From Actinokineospora enzanensis DSM 44649 (GTDB lineage: Bacteria > Actinomycetota > Actinomycetes > Mycobacteriales > Pseudonocardiaceae), in contig NZ_KB894405.1 of NCBI RefSeq assembly GCF_000374445.1, positions 215,110-279,109 of the forward strand: a DNA stretch of 64,000 nt, written 5' to 3'. Shown piece after piece: positions 1 through 45,248 of the stretch. Positions within the stretch are counted from its first letter, which is position 1; the number at the start of each line of letters is the position of its first letter. Made by a program: the position numbers and the translations under genes. Under the pieces are notes generated by a model that saw only the letters and a program-made list of their open reading frames with translations, ran no database searches and was not told the origin of the DNA.

Positions 1-832
1 CAACCTGCTCGGCACAGTGCGCCGAGCGGCCGAGTCGGAGTACCAGGACCGGGCATGGGAACTTGCCCTGATGCTGTGGCCCCTGCACGAACGCGGCAAG
101 TACCTCGACGACCTCGCCCTCGCCGGTTCCCTCGGCGCGGCCGCCGCCGAACGTCGCGGGCGGACGGATGTGGCGGCGGTACTGCGCACCCAGGAGGGTT
201 TCGCCGCATTGCACCGAGGCGATCCGGCCGCGGCCTACGCATTGTTCCGAACAGCGCTCGACGCGGACGCGGTCCCCGAGATCATCGCCACCGCCACCGA
301 GTCGTTGGGCCTGGCCGCCCTCGCCCTGGACCGCCGCGCGGAAGCCGCGGACCTCCTCCGCCGCAACCTGTCCCTGGCCGAGACCGTCGGCGACCCGCGA
401 CGCATCGCCCTGGCCCGTATGCACCTGTCCAAAGCCGTCACCCCCACCGAGGCGATCGCCCTGCTCACGGCCGCCCATGCGTACTTCGAGACGGCGGGCC
501 CCACCGACGCCCACAACGTCGCCAAGTGCGACCTCCTGCGCGGCATCGCCGAAACCGCCACCGCCGCCCACTCCGACGCCGCCACCCACCTGGCCCAGGC
601 CCTCGACCTCCTGCACACCCTCGCCCGCCCCTACGACGAGGCCCACGCCTGGACCGCCCTCGGCGACCTCGCCACCACCACCCACGACCCCACCGCCGCC
701 GACTGCTACCGCCGCGCCTTGATCATCGCCGAGACCTATGGCCACCAGCCGCGTGCCCGCGAACTCCACACCAAACTCGCCGACCTCGTCCGAGGATCCG
801 GCCACCCCCGAGCACAACCCAGCGAGTTCTGA
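1..832 (+). CDS. TPR-repeat protein, C-terminal part (truncated by window start)
   Basis: The frame is open from the first bases, so the first GTG at 17 is probably internal and this is the C-terminal ~277 residues of a larger protein. It consists of helical pairs with TPR character (for example around 'GFAALHRGDPAAAYALFR' and 'DEAHAWTALGDLA'), the kind of tail found on AfsR/NB-ARC STAND proteins. By eye it resembles in order the TPR half of the full-length NB-ARC/TPR protein at 41594-43549: an ALW-x-L...YDD/YLDD helix is followed by short A/L-rich repeats. The gene is convergent with a GT-B-like gene, exactly as at 43.5 kb. The fold class is fairly secure. The link to NB-ARC is inferred from the paralogous locus. 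Confidence 0.7.
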   Translation, partial: NLLGTVRRAAESEYQDRAWELALMLWPLHERGKYLDDLALAGSLGAAAAERRGRTDVAAVLRTQEGFAALHRGDPAAAYALFRTALDADAVPEIIATATESLGLAALALDRRAEAADLLRRNLSLAETVGDPRRIALARMHLSKAVTPTEAIALLTAAHAYFETAGPTDAHNVAKCDLLRGIAETATAAHSDAATHLAQALDLLHTLARPYDEAHAWTALGDLATTTHDPTAADCYRRALIIAETYGHQPRARELHTKLADLVRGSGHPRAQPSEF

Positions 833-853
833 GACAGGCCCCGCCACGGTGCC

Positions 854-1093
854 TGTGGATCACGCTGTTCACGGACCTGTTCCGGCTGTTGATCAGCCGC
901 CGGAACTCTGAGGTCTACGCGCCGAGCTGTGCACAGGGCCGAATCGGCGGCGCTGGCGGGCGCTTGTCAAGGGAGAGCGGAGCCCTGTGGATGCCTGGGC
1001 GGGTTGTGGACAACTCGCTCGGGGACCCCCGAGTTCCAGCCTGGTGGGATTGCGAGACGGAGAGTATGGGGTGCGGGTGGCGGGTGTGGATAA
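854..1093. promoter_or_regulatory. Cluster of four DnaA-box-like 9-mers
   Basis: The gap between the TPR gene and the convergent transferase gene holds TGTGGATCA (854), TGTGGATGC (986), TGTGGACAA (1005) and TGTGGATAA (1085), all in one orientation. The last two match the bacterial DnaA box consensus (reverse complement TTGTCCACA/TTATCCACA). It is not an origin in any obvious sense, as no AT-rich unwinding region or dnaA/dnaN gene is present. It could be a DnaA-titrating site or chance over-representation of this motif. Confidence 0.3.
1018..1033. terminator. Short hairpin between convergent genes
   Basis: CTCGGGG and CCCCGAG pair across a two-base loop in the 262-base gap between the TPR gene and the transferase gene. 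This is a plausible weak bidirectional terminator without a T-run. Confidence 0.35.
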
Positions 1094-1094
1094 C

Positions 1095-2744
1095 TCAGTC
1101 GGCGGGCTGGATGGTTGCGGTGAAGCGGCGGGGGCCGCAGTGGATTGTCAGGGTCAGCGGGACAGTGGGCGGGGTGTGGTCGCTGAGGAGGTGATGGAGG
1201 AGGGAAGCGCCGAGTGGGCCGTGGGAGGTGGGGAGGCCGGTGGTCACGTAGTGGGTGTTGTGGCGGGAGAGAGTCAGCCAGCGGTCGTGCGGGAGTGGAG
1301 TGGTTGCGAGGAGGGCGCCGGGGAGGGAGTGGAGGAGTTCCTGGGCCGTGGTGGGGTCGGGGGCGATGAGGATCTCGGCGAGTTCCAGTTCGCGGCGGAG
1401 AGGGGAGGCGGTGGTGTCCACGGTGAGGTGGGTTCCGTTGTAGGCGCCGGAGTTGAGGTTGGTGGAGGCGTGGCGGGTTATCGCGGCGGTGTTGTTGTGC
1501 AGGGTGACGTGGATTAGTTGGGCTGCGGGGGTGGTTGGGGGGACCAGGGGAGTGGGGACTACCTGGACTTCGGGGGGATAGGTGGGTTCTGGGAGGTTGA
1601 GGAGTCGATAGAACTCGGTGCGGAGGAGGGGGGCGGCTTTGTCGGGGTGGGAGGTTGCGAGAGCTGTCACAGAGGTTAGGTCGGGGCAGGGGGCGGTTGG
1701 GTCGCCGGTGTAGCGCGGGGCAATGTGGAGTAATTGGGCGATGGGGGAGTCCGGGTCCACGGTGCTGTGCGGGGCGGTGGCCAGGAATACCGGGCGGCCT
1801 AAGGCGGCGCCGTAGAAGGTCACCGAGCCGTGGTCGCCGATGATGGTGTCGGCGGCTATCAGGGCGGCGCGCCAGCCGTCCTGGGCGGGGAGGATGGTGA
1901 GGCCTGCGCGGGTGCAGCGGGCCAGCCAGGCGGCTACCTGCCAGTCGGAGTGCCAGGCGCGGATGTTGGGGTGCAGGGCGACCACCGTGCGGTATTCGTC
2001 CAGAGGTAATTCGGCCAGGGTATCGGGGAGGTCGGGGCATTCGGCGAAGAGTGAACCCGGGCCCCAGGTGGAGCTCACGACCAACAGGCGTTGGCCGGGG
2101 GCGACGCCGAAGGCCCGGCGGTACATGGGGCGTAGGGGGAGGCTGGCGGTCATTCGGTCGAGGCAGGGGTCGCCCGCCACCAGGCTGATGGGGACGGCTT
2201 GGCGGCACGAGCGGGCGAGGCGGGTGCGTTGTTCCTCGTGGGAGAGGACCAGGACGGTGGGGATCAGGTCGCCGTTCGCGTTGAGCAGGGACTCGCTGGA
2301 GATGCCGAAGGCGCCCTCATGCCCGTTTCCCGTTTCCCGTTTCCCGTTTCCCGTTTCCCGTTTCCCGTTTCCCGTTTCCCGTTTCCCGTTTCCCGTTTCC
2401 CGGAGATATTTATTGTAGCCCATTCCGTGGGGCAGGACGAGCAACGGCCGCAAGGCGGAGAGGTCCCCGCCCAGGCTCGCGCTGATCGCCAGGTCCGGTG
2501 GATTGTCCACAATCGACTGCCACGGGTGGACCCGGATTCCCTGCCCCGTCAGGAACTCCTCGGTCCCCGCCGTGAACGCCGACGAGCCGGGGACGGTGAA
2601 CTCGACCTGGACGCGCGAGTCGGCCAGCAGGTGCAGGACGTCGAACAGCCGGGTGGCCGCGGTGATGTTGTGGACGATCGCGGCCACCCGGCGGGCTGGT
2701 CGGACGGTGGTCCAGACGTGCGCAGATGTCCGTGTCCCGACCAC
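1095..2744 (-). CDS. GT-B-like putative transferase with in-frame heptanucleotide repeat (paralog 1)
   Basis: 549-residue protein from a GTG start. The start is supported by alignment with the paralog at 43533-45248, since both begin the conserved part with (T/S)TVR...R.V..VVH followed by RL(F/L)DVL. The central part looks like a GT-B fold: an HPNI motif near residue 240, and an 'ADTIIGDHGSVTFYGAALG' segment resembling the donor-site loop of CDP-glycerol glycerophosphotransferase-like enzymes. No signal peptide or clear membrane helix is seen, so it is probably cytoplasmic. Around residues 115-142, right after an HGMGYNK motif, the protein runs through a repeated RETGNGK peptide encoded by a 7-nt tandem repeat. 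One unit more or less would shift the frame and end translation within about 20 codons. The substrate is unknown; wall teichoic-acid-like or capsule glycopolymer synthesis is only a guess. Confidence 0.75.
   Translation of the reverse strand: MVGTRTSAHVWTTVRPARRVAAIVHNITAATRLFDVLHLLADSRVQVEFTVPGSSAFTAGTEEFLTGQGIRVHPWQSIVDNPPDLAISASLGGDLSALRPLLVLPHGMGYNKYLRETGNGKRETGNGKRETGNGKRETGNGHEGAFGISSESLLNANGDLIPTVLVLSHEEQRTRLARSCRQAVPISLVAGDPCLDRMTASLPLRPMYRRAFGVAPGQRLLVVSSTWGPGSLFAECPDLPDTLAELPLDEYRTVVALHPNIRAWHSDWQVAAWLARCTRAGLTILPAQDGWRAALIAADTIIGDHGSVTFYGAALGRPVFLATAPHSTVDPDSPIAQLLHIAPRYTGDPTAPCPDLTSVTALATSHPDKAAPLLRTEFYRLLNLPEPTYPPEVQVVPTPLVPPTTPAAQLIHVTLHNNTAAITRHASTNLNSGAYNGTHLTVDTTASPLRRELELAEILIAPDPTTAQELLHSLPGALLATTPLPHDRWLTLSRHNTHYVTTGLPTSHGPLGASLLHHLLSDHTPPTVPLTLTIHCGPRRFTATIQPAD
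2322..2402. repeat. Heptanucleotide tandem repeat (CCCGTTT)11 plus CCCG inside a gene
   Basis: Eleven perfect copies of CCCGTTT followed by CCCG (81 bases) lie inside the minus-strand transferase gene, where they read as repeating RETGNGK. Seven is not a multiple of three, so each gain or loss of a unit shifts the frame. The two alternative frames stop at 2317-2319 (immediately after the array) and at 2264. In this sequence the array is in the open configuration. Confidence 0.97.
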
Positions 2745-41593: not shown

Positions 41594-43549
41594 GTGTCGG
41601 GCGTGGTTGTGCACCAGCAGTTGCCCGCGCCGCCGCGGGGGTTCGTCGATCGGGAGGCGTTGGTCGGCTGGCTGACGGGGTGTTTCGCGGCCGCGAAGGC
41701 GGAAGGGCGGCCTGCCCAGGCGGCGATGCACGGGCCGTCGGGGGTCGGGGCGCGCAGTGTCGTGCAGAAGGCGTACTGGGCGGATCCGGCGCGGTTTCCC
41801 GACGGGGCGCTGCGGGTCCGGCTCGGTGACGCGGTCGATCGGAACGCCGATCCGGTGGGGGAGGCGTTGAGCGGGGTCCTGGTCGACCTCGGTGTGCCGC
41901 GCGATGACATCCCCGTATCGGTCGAGTCGCGGAGCGACTGGCTGCGCAGCCATACCTATTCGCTGAGTCTGCTGCTGGTGCTGGAGGAGGTCGTCAGCGT
42001 CGCGCAGGTGAAGCCGTTCCTGCTGAACTCGCCCGGGTCGGCGCTGGTGGTCGTCGCGCGGTCGCGGATCCGGTTGCTTGCCAAGGAAGGGTTCGACCTG
42101 GCGGCCGTGGAGCCGCTGGCCGACGAGCACGGGGTCGCCATGTTCGAGCGGGCCCTGGGACCTGACTGGTTCGCGGCCGCCGACGTGCGCCCGGAGTCGC
42201 TGGTGCGGGCGTGCGGCGGGTACCCGCTGGCGATCAGTACCACGGCCGCGCAGATCGCGGGGACGCCGGAATGGGAGGTCCCCGAGCTGATCCGCGAGGT
42301 GGCGCGCAGTGGGGTCGGTGCGCTGGACCGGGAGTCCCAGGACTATGTCCGCGACAGTTTCGACCGCGCCTACCAGCGCCTCGCCGCCGCCGACGCGCGT
42401 GCCTACCGGCTGGTCGTCGGTGTGCACCCGGGGTCGACCGTGCCGGTGGCGGCCGCCGCCGCGATGCTGGGCGAGTCGGTGGCGGAGACGCGGGCCGCGT
42501 TGTCGCGGCTGGCGGTGAGCACGCTCGTCGAGTTCGTGTCGGCCGATCTCGTGCGGTTCCACGATGTCGCGCACTGGCACGCGCGGGAGCGGGCCGACGC
42601 GGACGAGCCGTTCGAGGCGCGTCGGGCCGCCGCCGAGCGGGTGATCCGGTGGTACCTCGACGAGACCGTCAAACGTGACCGAGTCCTGTCGGACCGGCCA
42701 CGCACCAACCCGGCGTACGGCCGGAAGGCGATCGGCGTCCAGCCGTCCCGTGCCGAAGCTTTGGTGTGGCTGGAGGAGTATCGCCCCAACCTGCGTGCCG
42801 CCGTCGCGCTCGCCGAACGGATCCAGGCGCACGACCTCACCTGGCAGCTCTGCGAGGCGCTGTGGGGCCTGTTCCACCTGCACCGCCACTACGACGACTG
42901 GATCACCACGCACCACGCGGGCCTCGCCGCCGCCATCCAGTCGGGCAACCCGAGTGCGGTGATGCGGATGACCTCGCAGCTGGGTTCCGCGCTGCTGGCC
43001 ACCAATGAGCTGGCGGGCGCGGCCCAGGCGTTCGCCGATTCCGGTGCGGCGGCGGAGAAGGCGAAGGACCCGGTCGGCAGGCAGAGCGCGCTGGAGTGGT
43101 CCGGCAAGGTCGCCGCCCGCAGGGGTGAGTACGAGACGGCGCTGCGGTACTTCGACCAGTCCTGGCACGTGGCCGAGACCCAGGTGCCCGCGGAGCTCCG
43201 GCCGCGGATGCTTGCCCTGCTGTGCCTGCAACGCGCCAGGGTCCTGCTCGCCGCGGGCCGCGCCGACGAGGTGCAGGCCGCCGCGCAGCCTGCCGTCGAG
43301 TACTTCGAGCAGACGAACGAGCGGGACAACCAGGCGAAACCCCTGCTGGTGCAGGCGAAAGCGCTGGCCGCGCTGGGCCGGGCGACCGTGGCGGCCGAGG
43401 TCGCGCGCCGGGTGGCCGCCCTGTTTCGGGCGGACGAATCCTTGCAGGGTGAGGCCGAGGCGTTGGACCTGGTGATCGAGAACGACCCGACCGAGGAGGA
43501 GCGGGCTCGGCTGCTGGACCTCTACACGCGGCTCAGCGGCGGACGCTGA
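41594..43549 (+). CDS. NB-ARC/TPR STAND protein with degenerate P-loop
   Basis: 651 residues. An NTPase-like domain (residues 12-330) is ordered as in NB-ARC: FVDREALVGWL, a P-loop position reading G-P-S-G-V-G-A-R-S, a Walker B-like SLLLVLEEV, then ACGGYPLAISTTAA (GLPLA motif) and VRFHDVAHWHARE (MHD-like). The P-loop lacks the expected Lys, so ATP hydrolysis is doubtful. A TPR half (350-640) includes 'GRQSALEWSGKVAARRGEYE'. GAGGGGA at 41586-41592 fits a GTG at 41603 better than 41594. The last 17 bases overlap the end of the convergent GT-B-like gene. The TPR half resembles the truncated protein at 1-832. Role unknown. Confidence 0.8.
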   Translation: MSGVVVHQQLPAPPRGFVDREALVGWLTGCFAAAKAEGRPAQAAMHGPSGVGARSVVQKAYWADPARFPDGALRVRLGDAVDRNADPVGEALSGVLVDLGVPRDDIPVSVESRSDWLRSHTYSLSLLLVLEEVVSVAQVKPFLLNSPGSALVVVARSRIRLLAKEGFDLAAVEPLADEHGVAMFERALGPDWFAAADVRPESLVRACGGYPLAISTTAAQIAGTPEWEVPELIREVARSGVGALDRESQDYVRDSFDRAYQRLAAADARAYRLVVGVHPGSTVPVAAAAAMLGESVAETRAALSRLAVSTLVEFVSADLVRFHDVAHWHARERADADEPFEARRAAAERVIRWYLDETVKRDRVLSDRPRTNPAYGRKAIGVQPSRAEALVWLEEYRPNLRAAVALAERIQAHDLTWQLCEALWGLFHLHRHYDDWITTHHAGLAAAIQSGNPSAVMRMTSQLGSALLATNELAGAAQAFADSGAAAEKAKDPVGRQSALEWSGKVAARRGEYETALRYFDQSWHVAETQVPAELRPRMLALLCLQRARVLLAAGRADEVQAAAQPAVEYFEQTNERDNQAKPLLVQAKALAALGRATVAAEVARRVAALFRADESLQGEAEALDLVIENDPTEEERARLLDLYTRLSGGR

Positions 43550-45248
43550 ACACGCTCGCATCGCCCGCGCGCACGGTCAGCGTGTCCGGGGGCTCGTCGT
43601 GCTCGGTCAGCCACAGGTAGAGCGCCGACACGGCCGCCAGCGCCTCCACTGCGCCACTTTCCCTGCCGATACGCAGGATAGGGCCACCCCGCACGCTCAC
43701 CACGCACCGCGCCTCGTCCAGCACCACCGCTGCCATCCGGGCGAACGGGTGGGCGTCGTGGGCCTCGGCGAGCCAGGTCGGGTCGCCGTCCCGGGTGAAG
43801 ACGTCCCGGGTGAAGACGATGTCCGCGTTGCCGCGTACGGCGGGCATCGGGTGGTCGGCCACCGCCACGAGGTGCGCGTCGTCCAGCATCGGTCTCGGCG
43901 TCGCCCGGCCCAGCAGCGCGTCCACGGGGTGCCGCGCCAGGTGGACCTCGTCGCCGATCACCGCGCCCGCCACCCGGACACCCAGGTGCTGTCCCGTGCC
44001 GGGAATCGCAACAGGCAGTGGGAGAAGTGGAACCAGAACGGGAGTTTCCGGTTCGGGGAGGTCCAGCAGTTCGTAGCAGAGGCGCCGCAACCGCTCTGCC
44101 GCCTCGCCCGGGACGGACGTGACGAATGCCCGGATATCCCTGTGCGTGCCGGATTCGTAACGTTCGCGGGCCTGGTCGAGCTGTGTGAGCAGGCTGCGGT
44201 CCCTGCGCAAGGCGGGAGCGGTGGAGCCGAGCAGGCGCACGGCGGTGCCTGGGGCGACCTCCTCCTCCGGGAATGACGCCAGCAACACGGGTTTGTCCAA
44301 TGCCGCCCCGTATCCGGTCACCGCGCCGTGGTCGCCGATCACCACGTCCGCGGCCACCAACGCGGCCGCCCAGCCTTCGGCGGGTGGGATGAGGATCAGC
44401 CCGGCCCGCAGACAGTCCGCGAGCCACAGCCGGATCTGCTTGAGGCCGTACCGGTACCAGATGTGCGGGTGCAGAATGGCCGCGACGCGATAGCGGTCCA
44501 CCGGAAGCTCGGCGAGCAGTGTGCGCAGGAGGTCCGGCCAGGTGCCGAACAGGGACTCCGACCGCCAGGTGGAGGACACGACCGCGAGCGCCTCCCCGTC
44601 CCGCACGCCCAAGGCCCGCCGATACCGCGCTCGTCGGCCTCGGCTGGCGATCATGCGGTCGAACCGGGGATCACCGCCCAGGAAGGCCGCCCCGACCGCC
44701 TCCGGGACCGACTCGGCCAGCCGGACGGCCTGCTCGTCATGCGAGAGCACGAGCGCGTCCGGCACGACCCGGCCGTCCGAGATCAGGGAATGCGGCGACA
44801 GCCCGTAGACTCCCGGGCTTTCCGGCTTTCCGGCTTTCCGGCTTTCCGGCTTTCCGGCTTTCCGGCTTTCCGGCTTTCCCGGAATCGTCTTACTGTAGCC
44901 GATCCCGTGCGACAGCACGATCAGCGGCGCCGTCAGGTCGTGCAGGTTTCCGCTGGTGTTGGCTGTGATCGCCAGGTCCCATGCGCTGTCCAGCGCTTGG
45001 TCCCATGACACCGACGGCAGCTCGTACTCCCGCAGGAAATCCTCCACCCCCACCGACAATGTCGACCCGTGCGGGCACGTGAAAACCACGCGCACCCGGA
45101 AGTCGGAATCGAACAGGGGCAGGACATCCAGCAACCGGTTCGCGGACGCCACGGTGTGCACGACGAACAACACCGTTCGGGAATGCCGCACCGTGGACCA
45201 CCGCCGCGCCGGTTCGCCGATCGGCGTGCGCGACCAGACTCCGGTCAT
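43533..45248 (-). CDS. GT-B-like putative transferase with in-frame octanucleotide repeat (paralog 2)
   Basis: 571 residues, homologous along its length to the product of 1095-2744: 'VVHTVASANRLLDVLPLF', then LSHGIGYSK, A-L-V-L-S-H-D-E-Q, V-V-S-S-T-W-R-S-E-S-L-F, I-L-H-P-H-I, and 'ADVVIGDHGAVTGYGAALDK'. The last resembles the donor-site loop of TagB/TagF-type CDP-glycerol transferases. Just after HGIGYSK, around residues 123-145, an 8-nt tandem repeat encodes the repeating peptide GKPESRKA. Changing the copy number by one unit shifts the frame and brings in a stop at 44783-44785 or 44737-44739. It starts 10 bases after the small membrane protein gene and is probably co-transcribed with it. 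The substrate is unknown. Confidence 0.78.
   Translation of the reverse strand: MTGVWSRTPIGEPARRWSTVRHSRTVLFVVHTVASANRLLDVLPLFDSDFRVRVVFTCPHGSTLSVGVEDFLREYELPSVSWDQALDSAWDLAITANTSGNLHDLTAPLIVLSHGIGYSKTIPGKPESRKAGKPESRKAGKPESPGVYGLSPHSLISDGRVVPDALVLSHDEQAVRLAESVPEAVGAAFLGGDPRFDRMIASRGRRARYRRALGVRDGEALAVVSSTWRSESLFGTWPDLLRTLLAELPVDRYRVAAILHPHIWYRYGLKQIRLWLADCLRAGLILIPPAEGWAAALVAADVVIGDHGAVTGYGAALDKPVLLASFPEEEVAPGTAVRLLGSTAPALRRDRSLLTQLDQARERYESGTHRDIRAFVTSVPGEAAERLRRLCYELLDLPEPETPVLVPLLPLPVAIPGTGQHLGVRVAGAVIGDEVHLARHPVDALLGRATPRPMLDDAHLVAVADHPMPAVRGNADIVFTRDVFTRDGDPTWLAEAHDAHPFARMAAVVLDEARCVVSVRGGPILRIGRESGAVEALAAVSALYLWLTEHDEPPDTLTVRAGDASVFSVRR
44816..44879. repeat. Octanucleotide tandem repeat (GGCTTTCC)8 inside a gene
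   Basis: Eight perfect copies of GGCTTTCC (64 bases) lie within the minus-strand transferase gene. Eight is not divisible by three, so gain or loss of a unit frameshifts the gene. In the present count the frame is open. The unit differs in both length and sequence from the heptamer in paralog 1, but the protein position is the same. Confidence 0.97.

Follow-up and report, generated by a model that had tools for sequence, protein, structure and literature searches.

Why would a transferase gene of the actinomycete Actinokineospora enzanensis DSM 44649 carry, in the middle of its reading frame, a perfect tandem repeat with a non-triplet, eight-base unit? Soil actinomycetes are the source of many antibiotics. 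The window, by which we mean the whole 64,000-nucleotide stretch of DNA that was analysed, contains two genes with non-triplet repeats, and in the sample surveyed their relatives form a soil actinomycete gene family with frame-shifting repeats of 7–8 bases, though phase variation is described, in the excerpted text of one paper, as typical of small-genome pathogens (PMC11475388). The features discussed below are as follows.

43533..45248, minus strand: TagF-like GT-B-fold transferase gene, 571 aa, ON (open reading frame, model, Foldseek)
44816..44879, minus strand: octamer array in the loop behind HGIGYSK, eight copies of the coding-strand unit GGAAAGCC (sequence, Tandem Repeats Finder)
44892..44897, minus strand: TACAGT, the TANNNT hexamer of the TAYANTAAR motif, from the Y and S codons ahead of the array (sequence; family statistics)
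1095..2744, minus strand: paralogous transferase gene, 549 aa, ON (open reading frame)
2322..2402, minus strand: heptamer array, coding-strand unit CGGGAAA x 11.6, in the same loop (Tandem Repeats Finder)
2412..2417, minus strand: TACAAT, the hexamer of the TAYANTAAR motif ahead of the heptamer array (sequence; family statistics)
41594..43549, plus strand: convergent NB-ARC/TPR-type gene, overlapping the transferase 3' end by 17 bases (TPR matches below Pfam cut-offs)
17..832, plus strand: gene with weak matches to TPR, convergent to the second transferase; the window contains its 3' part (Pfam)

Two Different Arrays in One Loop of Paralogous Transferases

Eight perfect copies of GGCTTTCC were found at 44816-44879 inside the minus-strand open reading frame 43533-45248, and Tandem Repeats Finder returned a period of 8, 8.0 copies and 100% matches. 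The array encodes repeated KPESRKAG immediately C-terminal to HGIGYSK, and with its eight copies the frame is ON, running through 571 aa without an internal stop. In the wrong frames, translation meets stops at 44785-44783 and 44739-44737. The paralog at 1095-2744 carries CCCGTTT x 11.6 after HGMGYNK. These are the only two perfect arrays in the window (units of 4-12 bp, at least 3 copies, at least 20 bp). An earlier, sequence-only reading had described the octamer array behind HG(I/M)GY(S/N)K, units of different length (8 versus 7) at one protein position, and the two wrong-frame stops; the array was reproduced by sequence and Tandem Repeats Finder, the coordinates of the two arrays bear out the difference in unit, and both stops were recovered when re-derived from the sequence. 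The same genome holds two further homologs. No 7- or 8-mer array was found in one of them (L003), and the other (L004, contig 11) has GAGCCGG x 9 at its 5' end (1446-1508), making it the third array gene of the family here; it looks OFF, because neither of the two ATG codons upstream shares the frame of the main open reading frame.

The AlphaFold2 model of the 571-aa transferase has a mean pLDDT of 90.7, with a poorly ordered repeat loop (pLDDT ~60). Foldseek against the PDB ranked the wall teichoic acid polymerase TagF first (E 3.5e-10, TM-score 0.45 by query length), followed by the glycosyltransferase MshA, TarL, UDP-GlcNAc 2-epimerases and capsule polymerases. H114-G115 of the transferase may be the counterpart of a catalytic histidine of TagF. 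The best structural match is thus to the TagF/CDP-glycerol glycerophosphotransferase family (PF04464; PDB 3l7m), which has the GT-B fold in common with the window transferase; the likeness is one of fold, whereas the window protein has an extra C-terminal region and stays below the Pfam gathering cut-off (PF04464 E 0.029, 13.8 bits versus 22.1). Scans of three transferase relatives against Pfam and of the transferase against NCBIfam gave no match, and a PDB sequence search with the transferase gave one chance-level match. Because no Pfam cut-off is reached and NCBIfam has no match, it is the modelled fold that points to a surface-polymer role; the most likely task of the enzyme is to assemble or modify a polymer of the cell surface.

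In 228 of 274 gene records (duplicates included) the transferase is closely followed by a convergent gene of the NB-ARC/TPR type. NB-ARC was matched by five of the six relatives of this neighbour that were scanned, four of them above cut-off, and all three relatives compared with NCBIfam showed AfsR- and HaaT-like similarity below cut-off. A known defence system was considered and rejected: PADLOC matched neither transferase, and the neighbour gave a weak TPR match.

Arrays Recur at the Loop across Actinomycetes

The sequence-only reading had proposed that homologs from other actinobacterial genomes would carry different short repeats at this position. Homologs were collected from the genus Actinokineospora (14 of 16 genomes, E 1e-3), its family (86 of 150, 1e-20), its class (25 of 296, 1e-60; 12 matches had no locus, and one of these was taken in), Streptomyces (50 of 199 genomes, 1e-100; 49 of the 50 matches were taken in and G502 was left out) and a named collection (the best 80 of 276 relatives). 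The Streptomyces genomes were recognised as such through a gene identical to one of S. regalis. From 278 loci we tabulated 239 distinct actinomycete genes with both halves; 11 strand entries without both halves, including L277 and L295, stayed outside the counts. Using a criterion of at least 3.5 copies and at least 24 bp, we found a loop array in 127 of the 239 genes (125 in the motif counts given below, where duplicates were removed by a different key), as the proposal had anticipated. The unit of the longest array has 7 bases in 108 genes, 8 in 14, 10 in four and 6 in one, and the sole six-base case (L155) has a heptamer array as well. Named loci with loop arrays belong to 12 genera, including Streptomyces, Kitasatospora, Frankia, Actinomadura, Nonomuraea, Murinocardiopsis, Lentzea, Saccharothrix and Saccharopolyspora. 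Tandem homolog pairs, each member with its own array, were seen at L050 (A. iranica), L088-L090 and L094.

The thinned set of 105 array genes contains 51 distinct units, a variety that agrees with the earlier expectation. On a FastTree phylogeny of 204 genes, a minimum of 36 changes is required to account for the presence or absence of an array and a minimum of 66 for the 51 units; arrays have therefore often been gained, lost or replaced at one site. The family can serve as a natural experiment on how arrays arise and disappear. The earlier suggestion of repeated selection for switching at one site holds in that loop arrays are widespread, but it needs amending, as 15 of the 239 homologs have arrays near or before the gene start (units of 7 bases in 12, 8 in two and 5 in one), L004 of the window genome being one of them; 97 genes have neither type. 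The arrays upstream of the transferase in L071, L098, L116, L117 and L240 are possibly 5'-leader arrays and not frame switches, because an in-frame start codon follows the array. The longest array seen, the pentamer CCGAG x 54, stands at the start of a homolog (L110).

A 1.2 Mb background (two 400-kb samples of the window genome and one of Streptomyces), searched with the laxer criterion of at least 3 copies and at least 20 bp, yielded 10 arrays, all with units of 6 or 9 bases (Fisher P 2e-14 for unit lengths against loop arrays). The 800 kb from elsewhere in the window genome contributed three short arrays (units 6, 9 and 6 bases, 3.0-3.7 copies), and nothing there is comparable, which rules out a chance repeat. 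Around the genes of loci L001-L198, a set that includes duplicates, 116 arrays of at least 4.5 copies lie in 459 kb, versus three in 697 kb outside the homologs; two of these three are one and the same array, next to a neighbouring homolog and present in two loci. The remaining one (L173:7555-7596) is a heptamer array at the end of its locus and possibly part of a neighbouring homolog.

A unit copied around the genome was likewise ruled out for the two units searched, GGAAAGCC and ACACCGG. The trimer of the former occurs at one place each in 3 of 16 Actinokineospora genomes, always in this loop, and ACACCGG x4 at one place each in 11 of 199 Streptomyces genomes, 10 times in this loop and once, in G177, at another locus. 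The lone match of ACACCGG outside the family, x 6.1 at L345:1500-1543 (Streptomyces), lies between other genes, near an open reading frame named GntR-like by eye.

Reading Frame and ON/OFF States

Of the 127 array genes, 36 had lost the frame at the loop, compared with one of 112 others (P 2e-10), and that one gene (L298, from G258) has a 3.3-copy array below the cut-off. In sets not picked by frame, 25 of 48 array genes were ON, above a random third (P 0.006); the Streptomyces set by itself (15 of 31) was not clearly above one third (P 0.06). Two sets are skewed: OFF genes are over-represented in set B (12 OFF, 23 ON), because 13 of its 20 stretches were chosen for a match starting at residue 122-147, and the named-collection set, confirmed by tblastn, leans to ON (1 OFF, 43 ON). 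None of the 51 distinct loop units contains a stop codon in any sense frame, where shuffling expects 4.7 (P 0.001), as would be expected if the arrays are translated.

Close relatives were compared as assembled genomes, in which short-read assembly can mis-size arrays. Among 55 gene pairs with at least 84% flank identity, 34 share a unit, and in 26 of those the linkers are of unequal length; the difference is a whole number of units in 11 (chance, 1 in 7) and, at 94% identity or more, in six of seven. In the other 15 it is not a whole number of units; one such pair, L226/L232, is 95.9% identical and differs by 1 base. At lower identity other indels in the linker add up. One-unit differences with opposite states separate L064 from L083 (99.1% identity over 4.4 kb), L055 from L065 and L260 from L280. 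Both genes of the L090 cluster are OFF with 6.4 copies, versus both ON with 5.4 in the L094 cluster (L056/L069 is one of these pairs). Two strains of Streptomyces anthocyanicus have 17.6 copies (OFF) and 9.6 copies (ON), a difference of exactly 8 units at 98.8% identity over 9.8 kb, and the gene table of the OFF strain, stated to be incomplete, has the second half only. L070 and L097 lie 21 bases, or three unit lengths, apart at 98.0% identity, with both in frame. The marks of a contingency locus, a perfect frame-shifting array and whole-unit copy differences with ON and OFF states between near-identical strains, are thus present.

These patterns make it very probable, as judged from sequence comparison, that the array is the switch of a gene subject to repeat-mediated phase variation. 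The copy number would change by whole 7- or 8-base units, presumably through slipped-strand mispairing, and a single-unit change shifts the downstream frame, as neither unit length is divisible by three. One in three copy numbers would yield the full-length transferase (ON), and the others a truncated product without the C-terminal domain (OFF). Changes of three units would keep the frame and merely lengthen or shorten the disordered loop by the HG motif. The switch region would be the loop that joins the two halves of the TagF-like GT-B enzyme, and since this enzyme most likely makes or decorates a surface polymer, switching would diversify the colony surface, for example against phages. Should the product be a phage receptor or some other surface polymer, this would help to explain unstable phage sensitivity in these bacteria.

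OFF genes could instead be decaying pseudogenes or assembly errors, with no switching. Many of the assemblies are drafts, runs of N lie inside the array in L080 and L292, and further lesions occur in L010, L277 and L295; L010 (from G005), with a second frame break further down, and L295, lacking the end of the first half and the motif, are permanently broken. However, the second half remains open in its own frame to the reach of the profile (~residue 400) in 34 of the 36 OFF genes, and OFF alleles also occur in single-contig records (G552, G628). An OFF plasmid described as a complete sequence (L299) moreover has a near-identical ON sister (L300). We consider decay or misassembly a very remote explanation.

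A second alternative is that the array tunes the length of a loop beside the active site, with ON/OFF switching not its purpose and frame loss a purged accident. The poor order of the loop in the model and the difference in units between in-frame members (linkers of 36 versus 99 nt in L138 and L139) would suit such tuning, which should nevertheless select for units divisible by three (3, 6 or 9 bases), the kind found in all 10 background arrays; the longest loop array has units of 7, 8 or 10 bases in 126 of 127 genes. Frame loss is also far from purged, since OFF alleles that retain an open second half make up 34 of the 127 array genes. Tuning as the main function is accordingly improbable.

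Relation to Known Phase-Variable Systems

Simple sequence repeat (SSR) contingency loci for surface glycans occur in Neisseria and Haemophilus. Those of Campylobacter, in the excerpted text available (PMC8437040), share with the putative surface-polymer genes described here their non-triplet repeats and stochastic ON/OFF states. Such glycan loci belong to small-genome pathogens, whereas the present arrays occur in large-genome soil actinomycetes, at a fixed site with a changing unit. Within the actinomycetes, the excerpted account of pglX of the Pgl phage defence of Streptomyces coelicolor (PMC4365076) likewise describes switching by repeat length; there, a homopolymeric G tract lies in a defence gene, in contrast to the 7-8-mer arrays in TagF-like transferases of many genera.

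The excerpted text of a phase-variation review (PMC11868660) gave no match for Streptomyces or Actinobacteria, and its Mycobacterium matches concern M. tuberculosis. A frame-transition survey classed phase-variation clusters by nearby repeats, and the transferase family was not seen in the part of its text available (PMC3711429). According to the excerpted text of a 2015 paper, many bacterial genomes have an excess of heptamer repeats, a subject that lacked detailed literature; the paper also cites a proposed link of heptamers to polymerase contact size (PMC4692102). According to excerpts from a Streptomyces mutation accumulation study, loss of NucS caused no considerable change in the indel rate (PMC11109965), a result that fits uncorrected slippage in such arrays and does not prove it. 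No published account of the transferase arrays was among the matches listed, in a search that mostly lay outside the subscription literature. Repeat-driven phase variation is ordinary in principle; what is unusual is the host group, the breadth, the fixed site with a changing unit and the linked DNA motif described below.

A Promoter-like Motif ahead of the Arrays

Directly ahead of the arrays stands TAYANTAAR, which resembles a promoter -10 box. The same loci served both to notice and to test its link to arrays: TANNNT stands at this place in 121 of 125 genes with an array and in 8 of 97 without. Inspection by eye showed short repeats there in seven of the eight, L192 being the exception. The motif is reflected in codon choice: the codon between Y and K has a GC3 of 0.03 in array genes, nearly always ending in T, versus 0.88 without an array, so that the middle codon of Y-[NTS]-K is AAT, ACT or AGT with an array and mostly AAC, ACC, ACG, AGC or TCN without. 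Motif and array changed together in ~20 of 25 independent pairs on supported branches and never in opposite directions (P ~2e-6). The earlier reading placed the repeats by their position in the protein; the DNA motif directly upstream of the array marks the site too. TAYANTAAR may act as a -10 element, as a site of DNA melting or as a binding site.

The excerpted account of hmw1A of Haemophilus influenzae (PMC8262952) offers a likeness in sequence, as the upstream end of a heptamer array there overlaps the -10 box. That array lies in the 5'-UTR and grades expression, whereas those described here are mostly mid-gene and frame-shifting, with turnover of the unit between lineages. On this model, the array could act through DNA or RNA at an internal promoter, setting the length of a 5' leader as in hmwA, and the frame effect would be secondary. 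Beyond the loop counts, TANNNT lies within 22 nt upstream of 13 of 19 start-site arrays, compared with 5.1% of control windows, and TTG is found at -36 in 53% versus 23%. The TTG-TANNNT spacer is 21 nt, however, and a scan for a conventional sigma-70 promoter at the window gene (43533-45248) found none. Since either strand of the loop motif can be read as TANNNT, it does not prove a direction, and a second count at start-site arrays gave 8 of 13 in the sense orientation and 4 of 13 in the reversed form. The units avoid stop codons, and no consistent start codon was found in the conserved segment right after the array. We regard a leader-length role as unlikely.

The motif could also serve the phase-variation switch itself. 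Tentatively, and with less than even confidence, we propose that the array and its upstream TAYANTAAR form one portable mutation device, in which a promoter-like or melting element would open the DNA at the repeat and drive slippage or seed new arrays. Such a device would explain the turnover of units at a constant site and the tracking of array presence by the motif on the tree, as well as the TANNNT ahead of most start-site arrays and the T-ending spelling of Y-[NTS]-K in array genes. TAYANTAAR lends itself to a direct test as a promoter of slippage. A broken Streptomyces member (L277, ~510-1425, minus strand) carries ~0.9 kb of other DNA, which may be an insertion element, exactly between TAYANTAAR and its GGTGCCG x 13 array.
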